A stretch of DNA of 64,000 bases, taken from the NCBI RefSeq assembly GCF_021026315.1, contig NZ_JAJNCX010000016.1, positions 1-64,000 on the forward strand. Reading direction: 5' to 3'. Shown piece by piece: positions 1,271 through 63,707 of this stretch. Source of the stretch: Rhizobium sp. C4. Lineage in GTDB: Bacteria; Pseudomonadota; Alphaproteobacteria; Rhizobiales; Rhizobiaceae. The position numbers were made by a program, and so were the translations under genes. The notes under the pieces are model-generated. The model had not been told where the DNA came from. It was given only the letters and a program-made list of their open reading frames with translations, and did no database searches. The first letter of the stretch is position 1; the number at the start of each line of letters is the position of its first letter.

Positions 1271-3070
1271 TCACACCCCCCGCACCCTCGGTTCCCCCTG
1301 CCCCTCCAGCATCAGCGCGGTCAGCGCCCAGACCAGCGCATCGAGCCGGTCGGGTGAGCGGCCGGAGGAGAGGCCGTCGGGGCCGAAGTCGCACATCTGG
1401 TCTTCGAGGCTGGCAAAGCGGCCGGCATGGGTCACGCGCCCCTGTTCGTAGAGTGCTGCCACCGGCTCGGCGCGGGCGACCTTGCCGCGCGCGGCGCGGA
1501 CTGTGGTGATCGGCAGGTTCTCGTCGATGCCGCGGAGCGTCGAGACCACCATGTCGCCGCCCTGGTTGATTTCTGCGACGATGCGGTCGGCCTCGAAGCG
1601 GCGATAGGCGCGTGCCGCGGCCAGCGCCCAGCCGGCCGGCGTTGCGGCTTCCACCGAGCAATCGGCCAGAACCACCGCCCTGCCCTTGCCATCGATACCG
1701 GCCACCACGATGCCGCAGCAGCTTGTCGTGCCATGGCCGACGGGCGGATCGACGCCGACGACGATGCGGGTGAGCGGGCCGATCTCGGCCAGCGTTGCCA
1801 CCGGGATCGCATCGCGCCGCCAGAAGGCGTCCTCGCGATCCTCGATCAGCTCGCCATCCAACTCCTGCCGGCCAAGCCGCGTGCCGCCATAGCGCGCCTC
1901 AAGCGCTGCCATGAAGCCCGGCGCGAGATTGCCGGCATTGGCGCTGGTGGCAATCCGCGTCAGCGCCGTGCCGGGGTCCGCCATCAGGCGTTTCAGGAGC
2001 GGCAGCGGGCGCGGCGTCGTGGTCACGAGCTGGCGCGGATCGTCGCCGAGCCTGAGGCCGAATTGCAGCATGTCGAAGGTTTCGCCGGCATGTTTCCACT
2101 TCGCCAGCTCATCGCACCAGGCAGCGTGAAATTGCGGGCCGCGCAGGCTTTCCGGGTCTTCGGACGAGAAGAGATAGGCGGTCGAGCCATTCGGCCAGAC
2201 GAGCCTTCGGCGCGAGATTTCGAAGACCGGGCGCTCGCGGCCGGCAATGCGCATGATACCCGATTGCCCGTCGATCATCACTTCGCGGGCGTCGGCAAAG
2301 GTCTCCGCCACCAGCGCGATGCGCAGGCCCGCCGCCTTGCGCGCCAGCCCATGCACCCATTCCGCACCCGCCCGCGTCTTGCCGGAACCGCGACCGCCAA
2401 TCAGCAGCCACGTGCGCCAGAGACCCCGCGGCGGCAGCTGTTCGGGGCGGGACAGGATGCGCCAGTCGCGGGCGGCGGCGAGCAGTTCGGCATCGGTGAG
2501 GAGATGCGGGCCGATGCGCCAGCGGGGGGTGATGGGTGGAGCGGTTGGGGCACCCCCCTCTGGCCTGCCGGCCATCTCCCCCGCATGGGGGGAGATTGAC
2601 TCGTGGCGGCCGCCCGGCTCAGCCGAAACGTCCTCAGTCCGCGGCTCGGCAAGGTGAACCGGCTCAGCCGAACCGGCGGTGACGATTGAACCAGACGTAC
2701 CAACCAGCTCGTCCCGACCGTCGGGTTGAACGGGTGCCAGATCAGGCTCGGCGGGTGCGTCTTGCCAATCTCCCCCCTTGCGGGGGAGATGCCTGGCAGG
2801 GCAGAGGGGGGTATCGGCGGCCTCTACGTCCGAGGCAAGTCCCCCTCTGGCCTGCCGGCCATCTCCCCCACAAGGGGGGAGACGACCCGTGGCAACCACC
2901 TGCCCCATCACATCGCAGACGGATGCGGCACCCACCTCGACCAAATCGCGAGCCTCAGACGGCGCGCCACGGTCTCCCTCCCCCTTGTGGGGAGGGTGGG
3001 GTGGGGTCTTCTTGCCAGCGTCCATGACAGCCGCGAGATCCCAACCACCCACAAACGTCTTCCGCGTCAT
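1271..3070 (-). CDS. Phage/GTA terminase large subunit with repeat-derived N-terminus
   Basis: DNA-packaging ATPase/nuclease. The conserved enzyme starts about position 2509 (WRIGPHLLTDAELLAAARDW). It has the Walker A motif GGRGSGKTRAG, a Walker B-like CDE in FHAAWCDELAKW, and nuclease acidic residues in VGVDPP, EINQGGD and the C-terminal DRLDALVWAL, so it looks catalytically intact. Upstream the frame stays open through four or five RIME-type repeats (roughly 2550-3010), giving peptide such as PPHPPHKGEGDRG and SPHAGEMAGRPEGG. The start chosen, ATG at 3070 after AGGATC, gives 599 residues. The nearest in-frame ATG to the conserved domain is 2575, inside a repeat. The frame also extends upstream to 3331, overlapping the neighbouring gene. 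The start is therefore uncertain. Confidence 0.8.
   Translation of the reverse strand: MTRKTFVGGWDLAAVMDAGKKTPPHPPHKGEGDRGAPSEARDLVEVGAASVCDVMGQVVATGRLPPCGGDGRQARGGLASDVEAADTPLCPARHLPRKGGDWQDAPAEPDLAPVQPDGRDELVGTSGSIVTAGSAEPVHLAEPRTEDVSAEPGGRHESISPHAGEMAGRPEGGAPTAPPITPRWRIGPHLLTDAELLAAARDWRILSRPEQLPPRGLWRTWLLIGGRGSGKTRAGAEWVHGLARKAAGLRIALVAETFADAREVMIDGQSGIMRIAGRERPVFEISRRRLVWPNGSTAYLFSSEDPESLRGPQFHAAWCDELAKWKHAGETFDMLQFGLRLGDDPRQLVTTTPRPLPLLKRLMADPGTALTRIATSANAGNLAPGFMAALEARYGGTRLGRQELDGELIEDREDAFWRRDAIPVATLAEIGPLTRIVVGVDPPVGHGTTSCCGIVVAGIDGKGRAVVLADCSVEAATPAGWALAAARAYRRFEADRIVAEINQGGDMVVSTLRGIDENLPITTVRAARGKVARAEPVAALYEQGRVTHAGRFASLEDQMCDFGPDGLSSGRSPDRLDALVWALTALMLEGQGEPRVRGV
2550..3010. 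repeat. Cluster of RIME-type repeats inside the terminase frame
   Basis: Four separate elements: A-type copies at about 2550-2597, 2766-2812 and 2839-2883, and a B-type copy (CTCCCCTTGTGGGGAGGG with a GGGGTGGGGTCTT tail) at about 2972-3010. All are crossed by the open terminase frame. The A copies occur in both orientations. Confidence 0.8.
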
Positions 3071-3140
3071 CACGATCCTGTCGATCTCGTCGGCGAAGGC
3101 CTGTTCAAGCCGGAAAAGCTGTCTCAGACAGACGATGATT

Positions 3141-3713
3141 TCATCCCGGCGCGTCGTCGGGAGGAGGCTCTTCCGGAACAGGTCCGCCTGCGAGACGATC
3201 GCGGGCCAGGGCGTCGGCGCGATCCGCGATATGGCGGTTGAGGCTTTCGCAGAGGTCCGAGAGCGTTGCATCATCGACATGCCGCGCCCGCTCCGCCTCG
3301 CCTGCATCGTCGATCTTCCTCTGCAATTCATCCGTCTTGTCGAGCGTGCGCACGATCAGCGAAATGGCGTCTGTCGCCGCCTTCAGGTCGGCGCGGGCAA
3401 GCTTCTGGTCGCCATCGGGATCGTCGAGAAGACGGGCCGCCTCGCGGCGCAGGCGCTGGAAGAGCAGAAGCTGTTCCTTCAGCTCGCCCGTCGCCTCGTT
3501 GAGCAGCGACCGCAGATCGGCCCCCGCGGCCAGCGCGTCTGCCGACTTGATCTCCAATGCCAGTTCATGAGCCAGCTCTCGCGCCAGATGCCGCGCCCGC
3601 CTCTCCCGTGCGGGATCGGGTGCAGGGCTGAGCGCAGGCGGCGCGCTGCCACCGCAATAGCCGTCATCGCCCCAGGCGCCGTAAAGGCCGGGGTCAAGGT
3701 CTTCGAATGTCAT
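3141..3713 (-). CDS. Putative small terminase / GTA hypothetical protein
   Basis: A 190-residue, highly charged, mostly helical protein. It begins MTFEDLDPGLYGAWGDDGYCGG, has long Arg/Glu/Ala-rich helices (about residues 35-150) and ends PEEPPPDDAPG. I do not recognise a Pfam domain. A gene of this kind directly precedes the large terminase in rhizobial GTA-like clusters, which suggests a TerS-like role; that is inference from position. Its stop (TGA in GGGATGA) lies about 70 bp before the terminase ATG at 3070. Coding is supported by a full-length frame with normal codon bias and by order on the same strand. Confidence 0.65.
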   Translation of the reverse strand: MTFEDLDPGLYGAWGDDGYCGGSAPPALSPAPDPARERRARHLARELAHELALEIKSADALAAGADLRSLLNEATGELKEQLLLFQRLRREAARLLDDPDGDQKLARADLKAATDAISLIVRTLDKTDELQRKIDDAGEAERARHVDDATLSDLCESLNRHIADRADALARDRLAGGPVPEEPPPDDAPG

Positions 3714-32281: not shown

Positions 32282-34744
32282 ATGGCGGCGAGCGATGCGC
32301 CATTCATTTTCATAGCCCTGATCGCGCCGTTTCTGGCGGCGGTGGCAGCGCCTGCCTTGACGCGGGTGCTGGGGCATTGGGCGGCGTTGCCGCTGGCGCT
32401 GGTGCCGGCCGGGATCTTTGCGTTCTTCTGCCGTGCGCTCGGCGATGTTGCGGGCGGACAGGCGTTCACGGGCGGGTATCTCTGGGTGCCGTCCTTCAAT
32501 GTCAGCTATTCGTGGCTGATCGACGGACTGTCGCTCACCTTCGTTCTTCTGATCTCGGGCATCGGCGCGCTGATCCTTCTCTATGCCGGCGGCTATCTGA
32601 AGGGACATCCGCAGCAGGGGCGGTTCTTTTCCTTCATCCTGATGTTCATGGGATCGATGCTCGGCGTTGTCGTCTCCGACAGTTTCCTCATGCTCTTCAT
32701 CTACTGGGAGCTGACCTCGATCACCTCGTTCCTGCTGATCGGCTTCGATCATTCGCGCGAGGCGTCGCGCCGCGCGGCGATCCAGGCGCTGGTGGTGACG
32801 GGCGGTGGCGGGCTGGCGCTGCTGGCAGGACTGATCCTCGTCTGGAACGTCACGGGGGTGAGCACCATTTCGCTGCTCATCGAATATGCCCCGGCGCTGA
32901 AGGCGAGCCCGTATTACTTTGCGGCCCTGCTCCTGATCCTCGGCGGCGCATTCACCAAGTCGGCGCAGTTTCCGTTCCATTTCTGGCTGCCCAACGCGAT
33001 GGAGGCCCCGACCCCGGTCTCTGCCTATCTGCATTCGGCGACCATGGTGAAGGCAGGCGTGTTCCTGCTCATGCGGCTGCAGCCGGCCTTTGGCGACACC
33101 GCCCCCTGGGAGACGATCCTGCCGGTCTTCGGCGGCGCGACGCTGCTCGCCGGGACAGTGATCGGCCTGCGCCAGACAGACCTCAAGCTGATGCTTGCCT
33201 ATACGACGGTCGCCTCGCTCGGGCTTCTCGTCATGATGACCGGCTTCGGCACGCCGCATGCGCTGGAAAGTGCGGCGCTCTATCTCGTCGCCCATGCGCT
33301 GTTCAAGGGCGCCCTTTTCATGGTGGCGGGCGCGGTCGATCATGAGGCCGGCACGCGCGACATCACGCGGCTTGGCGGGCTCTGGCGGGCGATGCCGGTG
33401 ACCTTTGCGGCAGCGATGCTGGCGGCGCTTTCCATGGGCGGGTTGCCGCCGTTCCTCGGGTTTCTCGCCAAGGAAGAGGTCTATGAGGCGCTTGCCGGGG
33501 GCAATCCGCGCGCCATCGCCTTCACACTTGCGGCGGTGATCGGCAACGGGTTGATGTTCGCGCTTGCCTTCGCCGTGGCGCTGAAACCGTTTGTCGGGGC
33601 GGAACGCCCGCTGCCGGGGCCACATCATGGGTCGGAGGCTGGCACGGAGGCTGGGGCACCCCCCTCTGCCCTGCCGGGCACCTCCCCCGCAAGGGGGGAG
33701 ATCGGCCAGAGGCACCCGCCCCATATCCACGAGGCCCCGTTCCTTATGCTCATCGGCCCGGTCGTGCTGGCGATTTCAGGCCTGATGGCCGGCATCTTTT
33801 CCGGCGCGTTCCACGCAGCGATCTCCGCGCCCATGGCCTCGGCGATTGCGCATGAGGCGCGGGAGATCACCATTTCGGCGATCCCGCATCTCTCCCTGCC
33901 CTTCGCTCTCTCGCTGGCGACGATTGCGCTTGGCGTCATCGTCTATCTTCTCCTCGACCGGGCGCGCGAGGCTGCGGCTGCGGCGCTGGAATCGATCGGC
34001 TGGGGGCCGGACCAGGGCTTCGACCAGGCCATGCGCGGCCTGATCCGGGGCGCGCATCTTGTCACCACGCGCATCCAGGCCGGACGGCTGGAAACCTATA
34101 TCATGGTGGTCTTCATCACCATTGCCGCAGCACTGCTGCTGCCGATGGCGATCTTTTCGGAATGGCCGACCTGGCCCGCCTGGCCCGCGGATGCGGGCTT
34201 CCATGAGCTCGTCATCTTCGCGATTGCGGTGATCGGCCTCTTCGCGGTCGTCGTCGCCGGCGACCGGCTGACGGCGATCGTGTCGCTCGGCATCCAGGGC
34301 TTTTCCGTCGCCGTGATCTTCATGCTCTATGGCGCGCCGGATCTCGCCTTCACGCAGTTCATGGTGGAGACGCTGTCGGTCGTCATTCTGGCGCTGGTCA
34401 TGACACGGCTGGACCTGCAGCCGAGCGATCACCGGCATGGGCGCGAACTCGTCAAGGATGCCATCATCGCGCTTGCCTGCGGCGTCGGTTTCGCCGCGCT
34501 CCTGCTGCGGGCCGTGCAGGCGCCGTTCAACACCTCGCTGACCGATTTCTTCAATGCATGGTCCAAGGTGGTCGCGCATGGGTCGAACGTCGTCAACGTC
34601 ATCATCGTCGACTTCCGCGGCACGGATACGCTGGGCGAAATCGCGGTGGTGACGATCACCGGGCTTGCGATCCTCGCGCTGATCCGCATTCGCGGGACCG
34701 GCACCGTGAAGCCGGCGGACAACGATCCGGAAAGGAGCGCCTGA
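32282..34744 (+). CDS. mrpA: Na+/H+ antiporter subunit MrpA (PhaA)
   Basis: An 820-residue, multi-helix protein, the largest Mrp subunit, related to NADH dehydrogenase proton channels. Conserved features are [20 protein letters not shown], the ion-path segment [20 protein letters not shown] (about 221-240) and [12 protein letters not shown]. The C-terminal part carries the MrpB-like/MrpE-like helices ([34 protein letters not shown]). About residues 458-475 ([17 protein letters not shown]) are encoded by a RIME-type repeat in a loop. It has a GGAGAG site before the ATG. Its stop overlaps the mrpB start. Confidence 0.95.
33656..33706. repeat. RIME-type repeat inside mrpA
   Basis: Element A (GCACCCCCCTCTG, CCTGCCGGGCA, CTCCCCCGCAAGGGGGGAG) within the mrpA reading frame, no stop or frame change. 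Conserved antiporter sequence lies on both sides ([13 protein letters not shown] before, [13 protein letters not shown] after). Confidence 0.9.
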
Positions 34745-44959: not shown

Positions 44960-45135
44960 CCGGACCTCTCACCGGAGTCAAATTCGGATTCAATCCTTAA
45001 ATAAAGTCTAACCGCAACGCAAAATTGCGCTTTATCAAGAATTTTTACATCATATTAGAGATTTGTTTTTGAACTATACTCAATATACGCAACAGCGCAT
45101 ATGAAGTAAAACCGGCATCCGAGCGACGACCCGCC
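44960..45135. other. AT-rich promoter region of the GGDEF-EAL gene
   Basis: About 175 bp, strongly AT-rich between 44995 and 45105, lying between the GGDEF-EAL start and the nikR stop. It presumably holds the GGDEF-EAL promoter. No gene is supported. Confidence 0.45.
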
Positions 45136-45534
45136 TCACGACGGGATGATCGCGAGCTCCCCATGGGTGACATTGCGCTCGGCCGTCACATGTTCGGCGA
45201 AATGGCGGACCTCGTTGGCCGAGCCCTTCAGGATGCTCACCTCCAGGCAGCGGTCATGGTCCAGATGGACATGCATGCTGGCGACCGAAATGTCGTGATG
45301 GTCGTGGAAGGTGTTGGTCAGGCGGCGCGCAAGGTCGCGGGCCTTGTGGTCGTAGGTATAGGAGAGCACGCCGACGCAATGGGCCATGTCACCTGAGTCC
45401 ACGCGGGCCTGCTTGAGCCCGGCACGCGCAAGATCGCGGATCGCCTCCGAGCGGTTCTGATAGCCGCGTTCGCTCATGACGCGGTCCAGCTCGGCCATCA
45501 GGTCGTCGTCGAGTGTCACGGTCACACGCTGCAT
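45136..45534 (-). CDS. nikR: Nickel-responsive regulator NikR
   Basis: A 132-residue ribbon-helix-helix repressor: [20 protein letters not shown] is the DNA-binding ribbon. The C-terminal ACT-like metal domain has the nickel ligands in [21 protein letters not shown] (His, His-x-His, Cys). It represses nickel uptake when nickel is plentiful. It is divergent from the nickel ECF transporter, with a NikR-like operator between. Start at 45534 follows the family; the frame is open upstream. Confidence 0.96.
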
Positions 45535-45616
45535 CGGGCTTCTCCTCACGTCGTTTTCACATCGCCAGATACCATAGGCCCGCGCCGCATTCGAGTGTGA
45601 GAAATGTCGAAATCGG

Positions 45617-45644
45617 TGATGACAAATTTTCAGAAAGATCATAC
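45617..45644. promoter_or_regulatory. Candidate NikR operator
   Basis: TGATGA-N16-TCATAC lies between divergent nikR and the nickel permease gene. The known E. coli operator is GTATGA-N16-TCATAC: the right half is identical, the left matches in ATGA, and the spacing is exact. Confidence 0.6.
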
Positions 45645-45700
45645 TTTCCCTTCACCAAAAGATGCAGGACCCAAACCGGGCTGCGAAGGGAGACCGACCG

Positions 45701-46786
45701 ATGCACATTCCTGACGGATATCTTTCACCCAGCACCTGCGCTGCGACCTTCGCGGCGGCCGCACCCTTCTGGTATGTCGCCTCGCGCAAGGTGGGACGCA
45801 TGCTGAACACCAAGGCGGTTCCGCTGATTTCCGTCGTCTCGGCCTTTTCCTTCACCGTCATGATGTTCAACCTGCCGCTTCCGGGCGGCACGACCGGCCA
45901 TGCCGTCGGCATGGGGATTGCGGCGATCGTGCTCGGGCCATGGGCGGCGATGCTGGCGATCTCGATTGCGCTTCTGGTGCAGGCCGTGTTCTTCGGCGAT
46001 GGCGGCATTCTCGCCTTCGGCGCCAATGCGCTCAACATGGCAGTGGTCGGCTCGCTGGTTGCCTATGGGCTCTATCGGCTGATTGCCGGCGCCTCGCCGC
46101 TCGCCTCGACGCGGCGCGTGGTGGCGGGCGCAATTGCGGGCTATGCCGCGATCAATGTCTCGGCCCTGATGGCGGCGATCGAATTCGGCATCCAGCCGAT
46201 GCTCTTCCACGATGCCTCCGGCGCGCCGCTTTATGCGCCCTACCCGCTGTCGATCGCCATTCCGGCGATGATGATCGGGCACATCACCTTTGCCGGTCTT
46301 GCGGAACTCATCATCACCGGCGGCCTTGTCGCCTATCTGCAGCGCTATGACGTGGACCTCCTGAAGGCGACCGCTCCGGGGGCTGCAACGGGTGTGGCCA
46401 AGGGCTTTGCGAGCACCTGGCGAACGACGCGCAAACACTGGGCGGGGCTCGCCGCATTGATGATTGCAAGCCCGCTCGGGCTGCTAGCCGCCGGCACGGC
46501 CTGGGGCGAATGGGGGGCCGAGGCCTTCCAGCATCCCGAAGGCCGCGCCGAGATTGCCGCCGCCTCGCACAACATCGCGCCGCCGGAAACGGTGCCCGCC
46601 GGGCTTGAAAAGCTTTCGAGCTTCTGGACCGCGCCCATTCCGGATTACGCACCCGCCTTCATGCATAGCCACGCCTTCGGCTATATCCTCTCCGCCCTTG
46701 TCGGCGGCGGCCTGATCATCCTCACCTTCCTCGCCCTTTCGGCCCTCGCCGCCCGCCTGCGGCCCGAGACGCCGGACGCGGCGTGA
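45701..46786 (+). CDS. nikMN: Nickel ECF transporter substrate subunit (CbiM/NikM with NikN-like tail)
   Basis: A 361-residue permease. It begins MHIPDGYLSPSTC, with the Met1-His2 metal pair and the PDGYLSP signature of CbiM/NikM. Core helices include LPGGTTGHAVGMGIAAIVLGPWAAML and GDGGILAFGANALNMAVVG. The last 110 residues (PAGLEKLSSFWTAPIPDY plus a C-terminal helix) are the NikN/PDGLE-type part fused on. Nickel specificity is inferred from divergent nikR and its operator. Start at 45701 is fixed by the Met-His N-terminus. Confidence 0.93.
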   Translation: MHIPDGYLSPSTCAATFAAAAPFWYVASRKVGRMLNTKAVPLISVVSAFSFTVMMFNLPLPGGTTGHAVGMGIAAIVLGPWAAMLAISIALLVQAVFFGDGGILAFGANALNMAVVGSLVAYGLYRLIAGASPLASTRRVVAGAIAGYAAINVSALMAAIEFGIQPMLFHDASGAPLYAPYPLSIAIPAMMIGHITFAGLAELIITGGLVAYLQRYDVDLLKATAPGAATGVAKGFASTWRTTRKHWAGLAALMIASPLGLLAAGTAWGEWGAEAFQHPEGRAEIAAASHNIAPPETVPAGLEKLSSFWTAPIPDYAPAFMHSHAFGYILSALVGGGLIILTFLALSALAARLRPETPDAA

Positions 46787-47991
46787 TGGGGGAGGACAAG
46801 GGGCATTCGGAGGCGGCAGAAGGACTTGGCGCGTCATCTGCGGAGGCAGATGTTGCCAAGACCCCTCCCCAACCCTCCCCACAAGGGGGAGGGAGAGCGA
46901 ACGCAGAACCCTCCTCACCTGGTGACTCGAGCGGAACGGTGCCCCCATCCGTCTCCCCCCTTGTGGGGGAGATGGCGGCAGCCAGAGGGGGACTGCCCGA
47001 AGAGGCCGGATTGGTTTCCCGTCATCCCGGACTTGATCCGGGATCCAGCCGCGCGATGTCCATCGCGCGAGAGGACTCCTCATTCGGTCGAACCGGCTCT
47101 CTCAGCGCGCAGACGCGCGCTGGCTGGATGCCGGATCAAGTCCGGCATGACGGAGAGAATGGCGGGATCGCCCGCAAACGAGGCAGACGCATCTTCACCA
47201 CCCCCACCCACCTCCTCCACGCGCTCACCCATGCGATAGAGGCGGAAGATCTGGCGAACCGCGACGGGTTGCTGCAAAGCCTCGACCCGCGCGCCAAGCT
47301 GGCCGGCGCGCTGCTCTTGATCATCGCTGCGACCATGCTGCATTCGCTGATCGGGCTTGGCCTTCTCTTCGCCCTTGCCGTCATGCTGGCGCTTGCCTCG
47401 CGCATTCCGTTGACGCGGCTGTTCAGGCAGGTGTGGCTCGGCGTGCTCGCCTTCACCGGCGTCATTGCGCTCCCCTCGCCCTTTCTCGTTCCCGGCAAGG
47501 TGATCGCGACGCTCCCCGTCCTCAACTGGACGGTCAGCGAGCAAGGATTGCGCAGCGCCACATTCCTCATCGGCCGGGCCGAGACGGCGGCGACCTTTGC
47601 GGCCCTTCTCGTTCTGACCACTAGCTGGCCGCATGTGATGAAGGCGATGCGGTCGCTCGGCGTGCCGGTCGCGGTTGTCGCGGTGCTGGGCATGACGCAT
47701 CGCTACATCTTCGTGCTGATGACGACGGCGGCGCAGATGATGGAGGCGCGGCGCGCGCGGCAGCTGGGGCCGCTGAAAGCCGCCGACCAGCGCCGGCTGA
47801 TTGCGTCGAGCGCCGGCGTGCTGCTCGGCAAGACGCTGGCCATGGCGGGCGATGTGCATATGGCCATGATCGCGCGCGGCTATCGCGGCGAGGTGCGGCT
47901 GATCGACGATTTCCGGTTTCGCGCCCGCGACGGCGTGGGCCTTCTCCTGGCCGCGACCATTCCGGCCGCCATTTTCTGGATGCAACGATGA
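46783..47991 (+). CDS. nikQ: Nickel ECF transporter transmembrane subunit (CbiQ/NikQ) with repeat-encoded N-terminus
   Basis: The conserved CbiQ protein begins about residue 145 (LTHAIEAEDLANRDGLLQSLDPRAKLAG) and has the usual helices plus the ATPase-coupling motifs MMEARRARQLG and MAMIARGYRGEVR. The frame upstream is open to GTG 46783/ATG 46786, which overlaps the nikMN stop (GTGATG), a normal coupling arrangement. The intervening ~140 codons are made of three repeat families. An internal ATG at 47128, itself in a repeat, would give a near-normal length of 287 residues. Which start is used is unknown. Confidence 0.88.
   Translation: MMGEDKGHSEAAEGLGASSAEADVAKTPPQPSPQGGGRANAEPSSPGDSSGTVPPSVSPLVGEMAAARGGLPEEAGLVSRHPGLDPGSSRAMSIAREDSSFGRTGSLSAQTRAGWMPDQVRHDGENGGIARKRGRRIFTTPTHLLHALTHAIEAEDLANRDGLLQSLDPRAKLAGALLLIIAATMLHSLIGLGLLFALAVMLALASRIPLTRLFRQVWLGVLAFTGVIALPSPFLVPGKVIATLPVLNWTVSEQGLRSATFLIGRAETAATFAALLVLTTSWPHVMKAMRSLGVPVAVVAVLGMTHRYIFVLMTTAAQMMEARRARQLGPLKAADQRRLIASSAGVLLGKTLAMAGDVHMAMIARGYRGEVRLIDDFRFRARDGVGLLLAATIPAAIFWMQR
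46858..47155. repeat. Repeat cluster within the nikQ reading frame
   Basis: Element B at 46858-46898, element A at 46950-46993, and element C at 47021-47155. Element C consists of GTCATCCCGGACTTGATCC and its inverse near 47130-47150, around a GCGCGATG/CATCGCGC hairpin and a CGCGCAGACGCGCG hairpin. Related C copies are at 61210-61266 and 63579-63707. Confidence 0.85.
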
Positions 47992-48809
47992 CCGAACCCG
48001 TCTTCGCGCTCACTGACATCGATTATACCTATCGCGACCAGCCGGCGCTTTCGGGCCTCAGCCTCAGCGTCCATTCCGGCGAACGCATTGCGCTGATCGG
48101 GCCGAACGGGTCCGGCAAATCGACGCTGCTGCGCCTGCTTTCCGGCCTCACCTTTGCGGGAAGCGGCACAAGCCAGGCCTTCGGCACGCCGCTGACCGAG
48201 GCGCGCTTCGAAGACGAAGCCGCACATTACGCCTTCCGCCGCCGCGTCGGGCTCGTGTTCCAGAACCCGGATATCCAGCTCTTCAACCCGACTGTCTTTG
48301 ATGAAATCGCCTTCGGTCCGTTGCAACTCGGCTGGGACAAGCCGCGTATCCGCACAGCCATCGAGGAACAGCTGGAGCGTTTTGAGCTCACACACCTCAA
48401 AGATCGCGCGCCGCACCGGCTTTCGGGCGGGGAAAAGAAGCGCGTGGCGCTCGCCTCCGTTCTGGTGACGGAACCGGATGTGCTGCTGCTGGACGAGCCG
48501 ACCGCAGCGCTCGACCCGCAAAGCCGTGACAAGCTGGTGCATTTTCTCGCCGGCCATCTGGGCGAAACCCGCACCGTGATCACCGCCACGCATGATCTCG
48601 ACATCCTGACCGCCATTGCCACCCGCGCCGTCGTCATGGCCGGCGGCCATGTGGTGGGCGACGGGGCCGTGCATGACATCCTGCACGACACCGATCTCCT
48701 GCGCCGCGCCCGCCTGACACATGCCCATGTCCACCACCACGCCAATGGCAGCCCGCATGCGCATCACCATGTCCATGCGCTGGACAGGGATGGGCATGTG
48801 CATGGGTGA
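47988..48809 (+). CDS. nikO: Nickel ECF transporter ATPase (CbiO/NikO) with His-rich tail
   Basis: A 273-residue ABC ATPase: Walker A GPNGSGKST, Q-loop VFQNPDIQLFNPTVFDEIAFGP (typical ECF), signature RLSGGEKKRVALA, Walker B VLLLDEPTAALD and switch His in ITATHDLDIL. The last 30 residues are very histidine-rich (AHVHHHANGSPHAHHHVHA), likely to bind nickel. It overlaps nikQ by 4 bp. Confidence 0.94.
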   Translation: MTEPVFALTDIDYTYRDQPALSGLSLSVHSGERIALIGPNGSGKSTLLRLLSGLTFAGSGTSQAFGTPLTEARFEDEAAHYAFRRRVGLVFQNPDIQLFNPTVFDEIAFGPLQLGWDKPRIRTAIEEQLERFELTHLKDRAPHRLSGGEKKRVALASVLVTEPDVLLLDEPTAALDPQSRDKLVHFLAGHLGETRTVITATHDLDILTAIATRAVVMAGGHVVGDGAVHDILHDTDLLRRARLTHAHVHHHANGSPHAHHHVHALDRDGHVHG

Positions 48810-63497: not shown

Positions 63498-63505
63498 GCG
63501 GCAAA

Positions 63506-63707
63506 GTCCCCCTCTGGCCTGCCGGCCATCTCCCCCACAAGGGGGGAGACGACGGGAGGCGAGCACGGCAAACTCCTCCGTCATGCCGGACTTGATCCGG
63601 CATCCAGCCAGCCCGCGTCTGCGGGCTGAATGACCTGACGACGAAAGAGTCCTCTCGCGCGACGGACGTCGCGCGGCTGGATCCCGGATCAAGTCCGGGA
63701 TGACGGC
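63506..63707. repeat. Element A and element C repeats between the XRE gene and betB
   Basis: Element A at 63506-63553 and a full element C at 63579-63707 (GTCATGCCGGACTTGATCC... inverse GGATCAAGTCCGGGATGAC). Confidence 0.88.

Follow-up and report, generated by a model that had tools for sequence, protein, structure and literature searches.

The window analysed, the whole 64,000-nt stretch of Rhizobium sp. C4 DNA, harbors a nickel-type ECF transporter operon made of nikR, nikMN, nikQ and nikO. The nikR-like regulator gene (45136-45642, minus strand) is divergently oriented, scores above the cut-off with the TIGR02793 nikR model and matches PF08753 and PF01402. The nikMN-like gene (45662-46786, plus strand) combines CbiM and PDGLE moieties (PF01891, PF13190; NF008873 above cut-off), and the family matches of this ORF run from aa 14 on, i.e. 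from ATG 45701. The conserved core of nikQ and its stop occupy positions 47212-47991 of the plus strand (PF02361; TIGR02454 above cut-off), and the start of the nikO-like ATPase gene (47988-48809, plus strand, PF00005) overlaps the nikQ stop. The CbiQ domain, scoring above cut-off, and the residence in an operon with M/N and O subunits identify NikQ as the ECF T component CbiQ/NikQ. The adjacent nikR suggests that nickel is the substrate; the matching family models are named for cobalt. The NikQ core is under purifying selection, with dN/dS values ranging from 0.09 to 0.13 against each of four congeners, and the nikQ gene therefore works. No Rfam family reached the gathering score within the region 45000-48800.

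Two repeat units in the nikQ leader

An uninterrupted nikQ frame extends from GTG46783/ATG46786 (46783-46788, plus strand) to the stop at 47991. The start overlaps the nikMN stop (TGA 46784-46786, in the context TGATG), and the frame reaches the CbiQ domain (match at aa 164-369, numbered from 46783, E 5e-29), as had been noticed in an earlier sequence-only reading of the locus. The same reading assigned to the leader about 140 codons of three different repeats. The leader indeed contains repeats, and measures 142 codons before the motif LLHALTHA (47212), the point where the proteins of the congeners become closely alike. The repeat-derived part, however, is 273 nt, or about 91 codons, and the composite units are two, B+A and C, because B and A are found joined at other sites of the genome. 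Of the codons outside the repeats, 24 precede B+A (46786-46857, plus strand, delimited by sequence and alignments), 8 separate the two units and 19 follow C. The leader end (47176-47211, plus strand) reads K..RR.F..P.H, and is partly conserved in alignments of the genus.

Unit B+A (137 nt, 46858-46994, plus strand) recurs genome-wide as one unit, and is found also in the nikQ leader of another species of the genus. It is predicted to fold, with hairpins at about 46873-46893 (B) and 46949-46975 (A). Unit C (47019-47154, plus strand), of which dispersed copies exist, consists of two CGTC-tagged REPs in inverted orientation; its arms (47019-47050 and 47122-47153) form a 32-nt inverted repeat with the CGTC tags at the outer ends. 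It begins with CGTC-ATCCCGGA-CTTGA-TCCGGGAT-CCA, and thus shows the features by which CGTC REPs are defined in the accessible text of the survey by Di Nocera et al. 2013 (PMC3733652), namely the CGTC tag, a stem of 8-9 bp starting with AT (8 bp in C), a loop of 4-5 nt (5 nt in C) and a CCA tail. The likeness extends to the inverted-dimer form, both arms being present at most C sites. Element A differs from the CGTC REPs so defined. Its CGTC is followed by TCCCCC, without the AT-based stem, and belongs to the predicted 11-bp stem at 46949-46975.

The leader is free of hydrophobic segments (max KD19 0.63), as would suit a cytoplasmic location of the encoded stretch. An AlphaFold2 model built with four sequences (mean pLDDT 39, pTM 0.23) was too poor for use. 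The NikQ core can be aligned, from aa 160-187 to aa 370-396, to the ECF T components CbiQ/EcfT of known structure (5x3x, 5x41, 4huq, 4hzu). The alignable part of the solved chains starts at residues 13-36, and nothing like the 140-residue leader of NikQ precedes it.

The nikQ leader across the genus

NikQ was found in 7 of the 61 genomes searched (own included), five of which belong to the genus, namely the own genome (G000), G001, G003, G004 and G005. The sixth genome of the genus (G002) gave no NikQ match. Identity to the proteins of the congeners is 88-90%. The TGATG overlap, and an open, stop-free frame running to the conserved domain, are present in all five congeners with nikQ. The leader spans 90 nt in G001 and 102 nt in G005, with no repeat in either; 171 nt in G003, with one 64-nt near-palindrome in an arrangement unlike the others; 273 nt in G004, with B+A; and 426 nt in G000, the longest of the five, with B+A and C. 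All five lengths are divisible by three. In G001 and G005 no in-frame start other than the overlap ATG (in G001 also the GTG next to it) precedes LLHALTHA, and the overlap codon is therefore most likely the native start. In a more distant homologue (G007, 56% identity), an ATG directly follows the nikMN stop (TGAATG). The residues directly upstream of LLHALTHA are conserved among the congeners.

The comparison with repeat-free relatives had been proposed along with the claims above, and in such relatives the nikQ frame continues without interruption from the nikMN stop through 30-34 leader codons. Two observations had been named in advance as arguing against a coding leader. One, a separate nikQ start well downstream in relatives devoid of repeats, was seen neither in G001 nor in G005. 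The other, stop codons in the stretch, was absent from all four congeners, which are other species of the genus rather than the sister strains originally indicated.

The history of the repeats can be followed on a tree of three other proteins (1685 columns), in which the topology is ((G000,(G005,G004)),(G003,G001)), with G002 branching off outside. G004 with G005 is supported at 100, these with G000 at 89, and G001 with G003 at 76. A tree of the nik operon was set aside (supports 52 and 65; nikO rows were untrimmed open frames). B+A resides in G000 and G004, and is missing in G005. The unit was consequently either gained before the group arose and lost in G005, or gained twice; within a comparison of five species, B+A may be shared by G000 and G004 through descent. 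The short stretch found in G004 in place of C could be either an empty site or the scar of a lost C.

An open frame is of little value when taken alone. Of 5000 dinucleotide shuffles of region 46858-47154, 1096 are stop-free in the nikQ frame, and 13 of 38 gene-repeat pairs of the own genome (pairs in which the 5' end of a gene is turned towards a repeat no more than 400 nt away; nikQ left out) are open through the repeat. The open frame was accordingly rejected as stand-alone evidence. Codon usage was likewise rejected as a support for coding, the leader scoring non-coding, with negative log odds in the first six 20-codon blocks. For the conservation of the frame among species, the chance from length phase alone is (1/3)^4 = 0.012. 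If each element is given its own open-frame rate, divided by 3, the chance over three events is about 0.005; the rates used are 81/126 for A/B sites (a class comprising all 21 A/B sites of at least 90 nt without C, and not strict B+A copies), 34/138 for C sites and 5/6 for the G003 element. With the empirical per-event rate of 13/38, three events give about 0.04. The evidence from frame conservation is good but not overwhelming.

The reading that in our opinion most likely accounts for these data is that the repeats are translated as an N-terminal tail of NikQ from the overlap start, and represent neutral insertions that kept the frame. Translation of nikQ would begin, by translational coupling, at the codon overlapping the nikMN stop, and the short, poorly conserved, hydrophilic leader would have served as a tolerant landing site for dispersed palindromes, B+A and the C dimer. 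Only insertions, losses and indels leaving the frame open and in phase would have survived, because the only native start lies upstream. The NikQ protein would thus bear a tail of 142 codons ahead of LLHALTHA, about 91 of them contributed by repeats. We infer that the tail is translated, and that it is probably cytoplasmic and functionally neutral.

Neutrality is also what a comparison of B+A in G000 and G004 points to. Differences at codon positions 1, 2 and 3 are 4, 10 and 7, respectively, with no third-position excess, and the values obtained (dN 0.18, dS 0.25) are no better than those of shifted frames. Purifying selection on the tail peptide, tested on this pair, was not found. The frame is kept and the peptide is not, and a neutral tail is the simplest reading. 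In the same pair B+A diverged less (dS 0.25) than the synonymous sites of the NikQ core (0.54), which could reflect later insertion, gene conversion, or constraint at the DNA or RNA level.

Candidate start codons and RNA structure

The sequence-only reading had left two options, a translated leader or a new start at ATG47128. According to the second, the repeats cut the old start off, and NikQ is made from ATG47128. In a wider form of this alternative ATG46972 is another candidate start, and the stretch before the internal start would be an untranslated, or separately translated, spacer. ATG47128 (47128-47130, plus strand) does sit inside element C, as stated at the time, in its 3' arm, and a product initiated there would have 28 codons ahead of LLHALTHA, similar to the 30-34 of the repeat-free relatives. 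Its pairing with the anti-SD is weak (-2.7), however, its mean unpaired probability is as low as 0.16, and it lies within the 32-nt inverted repeat; ATG47056 (anti-SD -4.1, accessibility 0.12) is no better placed. ATG46972 has a strong anti-SD match (-8.4), and an in-frame ATG provided by an A-type hairpin is found in G003 and G004 as well as in G000. Yet the SD-like run abuts the ATG without spacing, the codon lies in the stem of the A hairpin, and element C would still be translated from it. The overlap start, too, is poorly accessible (0.30), with a weak anti-SD match (-3.7) and strong structure downstream, and accessibility is therefore a mild argument only; the values for the nikO overlap start are -3.1 and 0.46.

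G004, which lacks C, has no in-frame start between the A hairpin and LLHALTHA, and the conservation of the frame across five species is not predicted by internal initiation. Though many N-terminal REPs are suspected to be non-coding in the accessible part of the 2013 survey (PMC3733652), an internal start in nikQ looks improbable, and of the two original options the congener comparison favours the translated leader and disfavours ATG47128.

In the four relatives LLHALTHA is directly followed by an in-frame Met codon (HALTHAMEAED), which could in principle start a shorter product; yet the residues upstream are conserved. In the window the corresponding codon (47236-47238) is ATA (Ile), a change that removes a possible internal start. 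This change, and a leader longer than in any of the other four species, might suggest that nikQ is decaying in the own strain, the repeats being a symptom of it. Decay is hardly credible for a gene which contains no stop or frameshift, retains 88-90% identity to its homologues as well as the overlap with nikO, and has core dN/dS values of 0.09-0.13.

A further possibility is that the repeats act mainly as RNA, hairpins at the junction tuning translation or decay of the message to keep NikQ below NikMN in amount; translation of the repeats would then be incidental. The RNA fold of region 46840-47175 (336 nt) has a z-score of -8.15, none of 100 shuffles being equally stable, and the repeats reside at the junction of coupled subunits of one transporter. 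Transcriptional activity has been reported for REPs of S. meliloti, according to the accessible text of PMC2873474, and the lower divergence of B+A (dS 0.25 against 0.54 in the core) would fit RNA constraint as well as later insertion or gene conversion. Any palindrome of this type should fold strongly, however, and copies of both units are dispersed through the genome. Nor is the feature conserved, two of the five species being repeat-free, and the other three being found in three different states. A main role as RNA, compatible with a translated tail, seems unlikely.

Dispersal of the repeats and copies inside other genes

B and A are co-linear at at least seven other sites of the genome (108-151 bp; 40 of 130 candidates scored). 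Allowing up to 3 mismatches, 45 matches to the C arm and 27 to the A hairpin were counted in the own genome, and none to the reversed pattern. In the other genomes of the genus C-arm matches are 36 in G003, 24 in G005, 6 in G004, 5 in G001 and 4 in G002. A-hairpin matches are 37 in G001, 25 in G003 (a few of which are single sites matched on both strands), 21 in G004, 14 in G005 and none in G002. The reversed patterns gave no match in either search. The C arm was detected in 9 of 61 genomes drawn from the family, among which the own genome and one congener. A match as long as B+A (136 nt, 78%) occurs on one replicon of Allorhizobium pseudoryzae, and matches of 37-40 nt to B or A occur on Rhizobium and Sinorhizobium replicons (best 10 of 12 records). 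Rhizobium-specific intergenic mosaic elements (RIME), reportedly described by Osteras in 1995, are dispersed palindromic repeats of rhizobia, which the nikQ repeats may resemble. The Y1 tyrosine transposase (PF01797) was found in none of the six genomes of the genus, the control search being positive in 5 of 14 named genomes, and was on these grounds rejected as the mover of the repeats. In this respect element C agrees with the CGTC REPs, for which a dedicated tyrosine transposase is not known.

Among 66 repeat sites surveyed in the own genome, 61 are intergenic, 3 partial and 2 inside genes. The survey covered the 40 of 130 candidates scored plus the sites retrieved by the C-arm and A-hairpin pattern searches; classes rest on our own codon-score gene calls, and some adjoining half-elements were counted as separate sites. 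nikQ is one of the three partial sites, the gene caller having placed its start downstream. The other four partial or intragenic sites include one more N-terminal case, in a terminase gene, and three genes with in-frame repeats in the middle of the coding region. Mid-gene repeats (blastn, E 1e-3) are carried by five of the six congeners in a carboxylase (all but G002), by four in an antiporter and by four in a reductase, and none of the carriers' matches was reported to contain a stop. Mid-gene repeats cannot be skipped by initiation further inside the gene, which supports the notion that the genus translates such sequences.

The carboxylase repeat is a 114-nt inverted pair of A type, located in frame in mid-gene (L050:2907-3020, G000:C11:30606-30719; L079-L083). 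The only domain matches in the fragment scanned are Biotin_lipoyl and a weaker HlyD_3, and we take the product to be an MCC-alpha-like biotin-dependent carboxylase. The insert DNA of G000 is 94-96% identical to that of G005, G001 and G004, the flanking coding DNA 78-80%; against G003 the insert is 78% identical and reads differently. The likeness could result from repeated recent insertion, gene conversion or constraint. In the MrpA-like antiporter subunit gene (32282-34741, plus strand), an A-type repeat lies in frame at 33660-33716 of the window; by blastn it is also present in G003, G004 and G005, and not in G001 and G002. In a FAD/NAD/2Fe-2S reductase, B+A lies in frame in the linker between the reductase and 2Fe-2S parts (L046; G000:C8:79343-79448). 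A shorter A-like piece occupies this linker in G003-G005, and none is found in G001 and G002; the match of the G001 homologue held one TGA.

The genus might have a protein-coding palindrome system of its own. A/B palindromes, as one family, would spread between genes and would also enter proteins in frame, repeatedly at sites that tolerate them (a coupled gene's leader, the linker between two domains, a loop of a membrane protein, the mid-part of a carboxylase), and would be homogenised, as suggested by the carboxylase insert, which is 94-96% identical in three of four comparisons against 78-80% of the flanks. At the nikMN-nikQ junction they would have built up stepwise a translated, structured spacer setting the subunit ratio. 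This broader scenario is to be regarded as unlikely.

Rickettsia palindromic elements (RPEs), as described in the accessible text of PMC2229807 and PMC10969869, measure 105-146 bp, and are found in frame in otherwise conserved genes as well as in intergenic regions; according to the same texts, an RPE-carrying guanylate kinase is both translated and active. The repeats studied here are similarly palindromic, similar in size, and located both in frame in conserved genes and between genes. They differ from RPEs in occurring in a rhizobium-related genus, and in being intergenic at 61 of the 66 sites surveyed; the two are likened by description. A palindromic repeat lying in frame inside a conserved gene, and missing in relatives, is found in nikQ and in the reductase, antiporter and carboxylase genes. 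Intragenic and N-terminal REPs of several species are reported in the accessible text of Di Nocera et al. (PMC3733652), which warns that many N-terminal REPs may be non-coding, and mentions that Rickettsia proteins with an N-terminal RPE-1 are expressed. The clusters of that survey encode 43 to 82 aa, as far as its accessible text goes, whereas about 91 codons derive here from two units. The case of nikQ would join, as a new member, the already known protein-coding palindromes, i.e. Rickettsia RPEs and intragenic REPs. A limited search, conducted mostly outside subscription journals, found no publications dealing with NikQ leaders encoded by repeats, or with comparable insertions in genes of rhizobia. 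Across close relatives a single site holds no repeat, one palindrome, B+A, or B+A and C, and the frame from the overlap-fixed start is kept in every case. A series leading from no repeat to B+A and C argues that the N-terminal repeats of nikQ are coding, and makes the coding or non-coding nature of such repeats testable by comparison. The conserved in-frame repeats in other genes of the genus are further test cases.

Other observations concern leaders and neighbouring repeats. The open gene-repeat pairs are 13 of the 30 with a co-directional upstream gene, and none of the other 8 (5 with a divergent upstream gene, 3 for which the gene calls gave none upstream); on these small numbers, other leaders too may be translated. 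Adjacent A and C repeats are found at 63505-63706 of the window, and at G000 C3:95308-95605, C45:47666-47852 and C47:104679-104878. At such sites the spacing between A and C is 6 nt, or, as deduced from co-linear matches, about 24 nt, as in nikQ. The vicinity suggests that one repeat guides the other, or that both move together. In the terminase frame (1271-3355 of the window, minus strand) repeats are located at 2554-2620 and 2769-3010, upstream of the Terminase_6 large-subunit domain (aa 318 on), and may represent a second N-terminal case.
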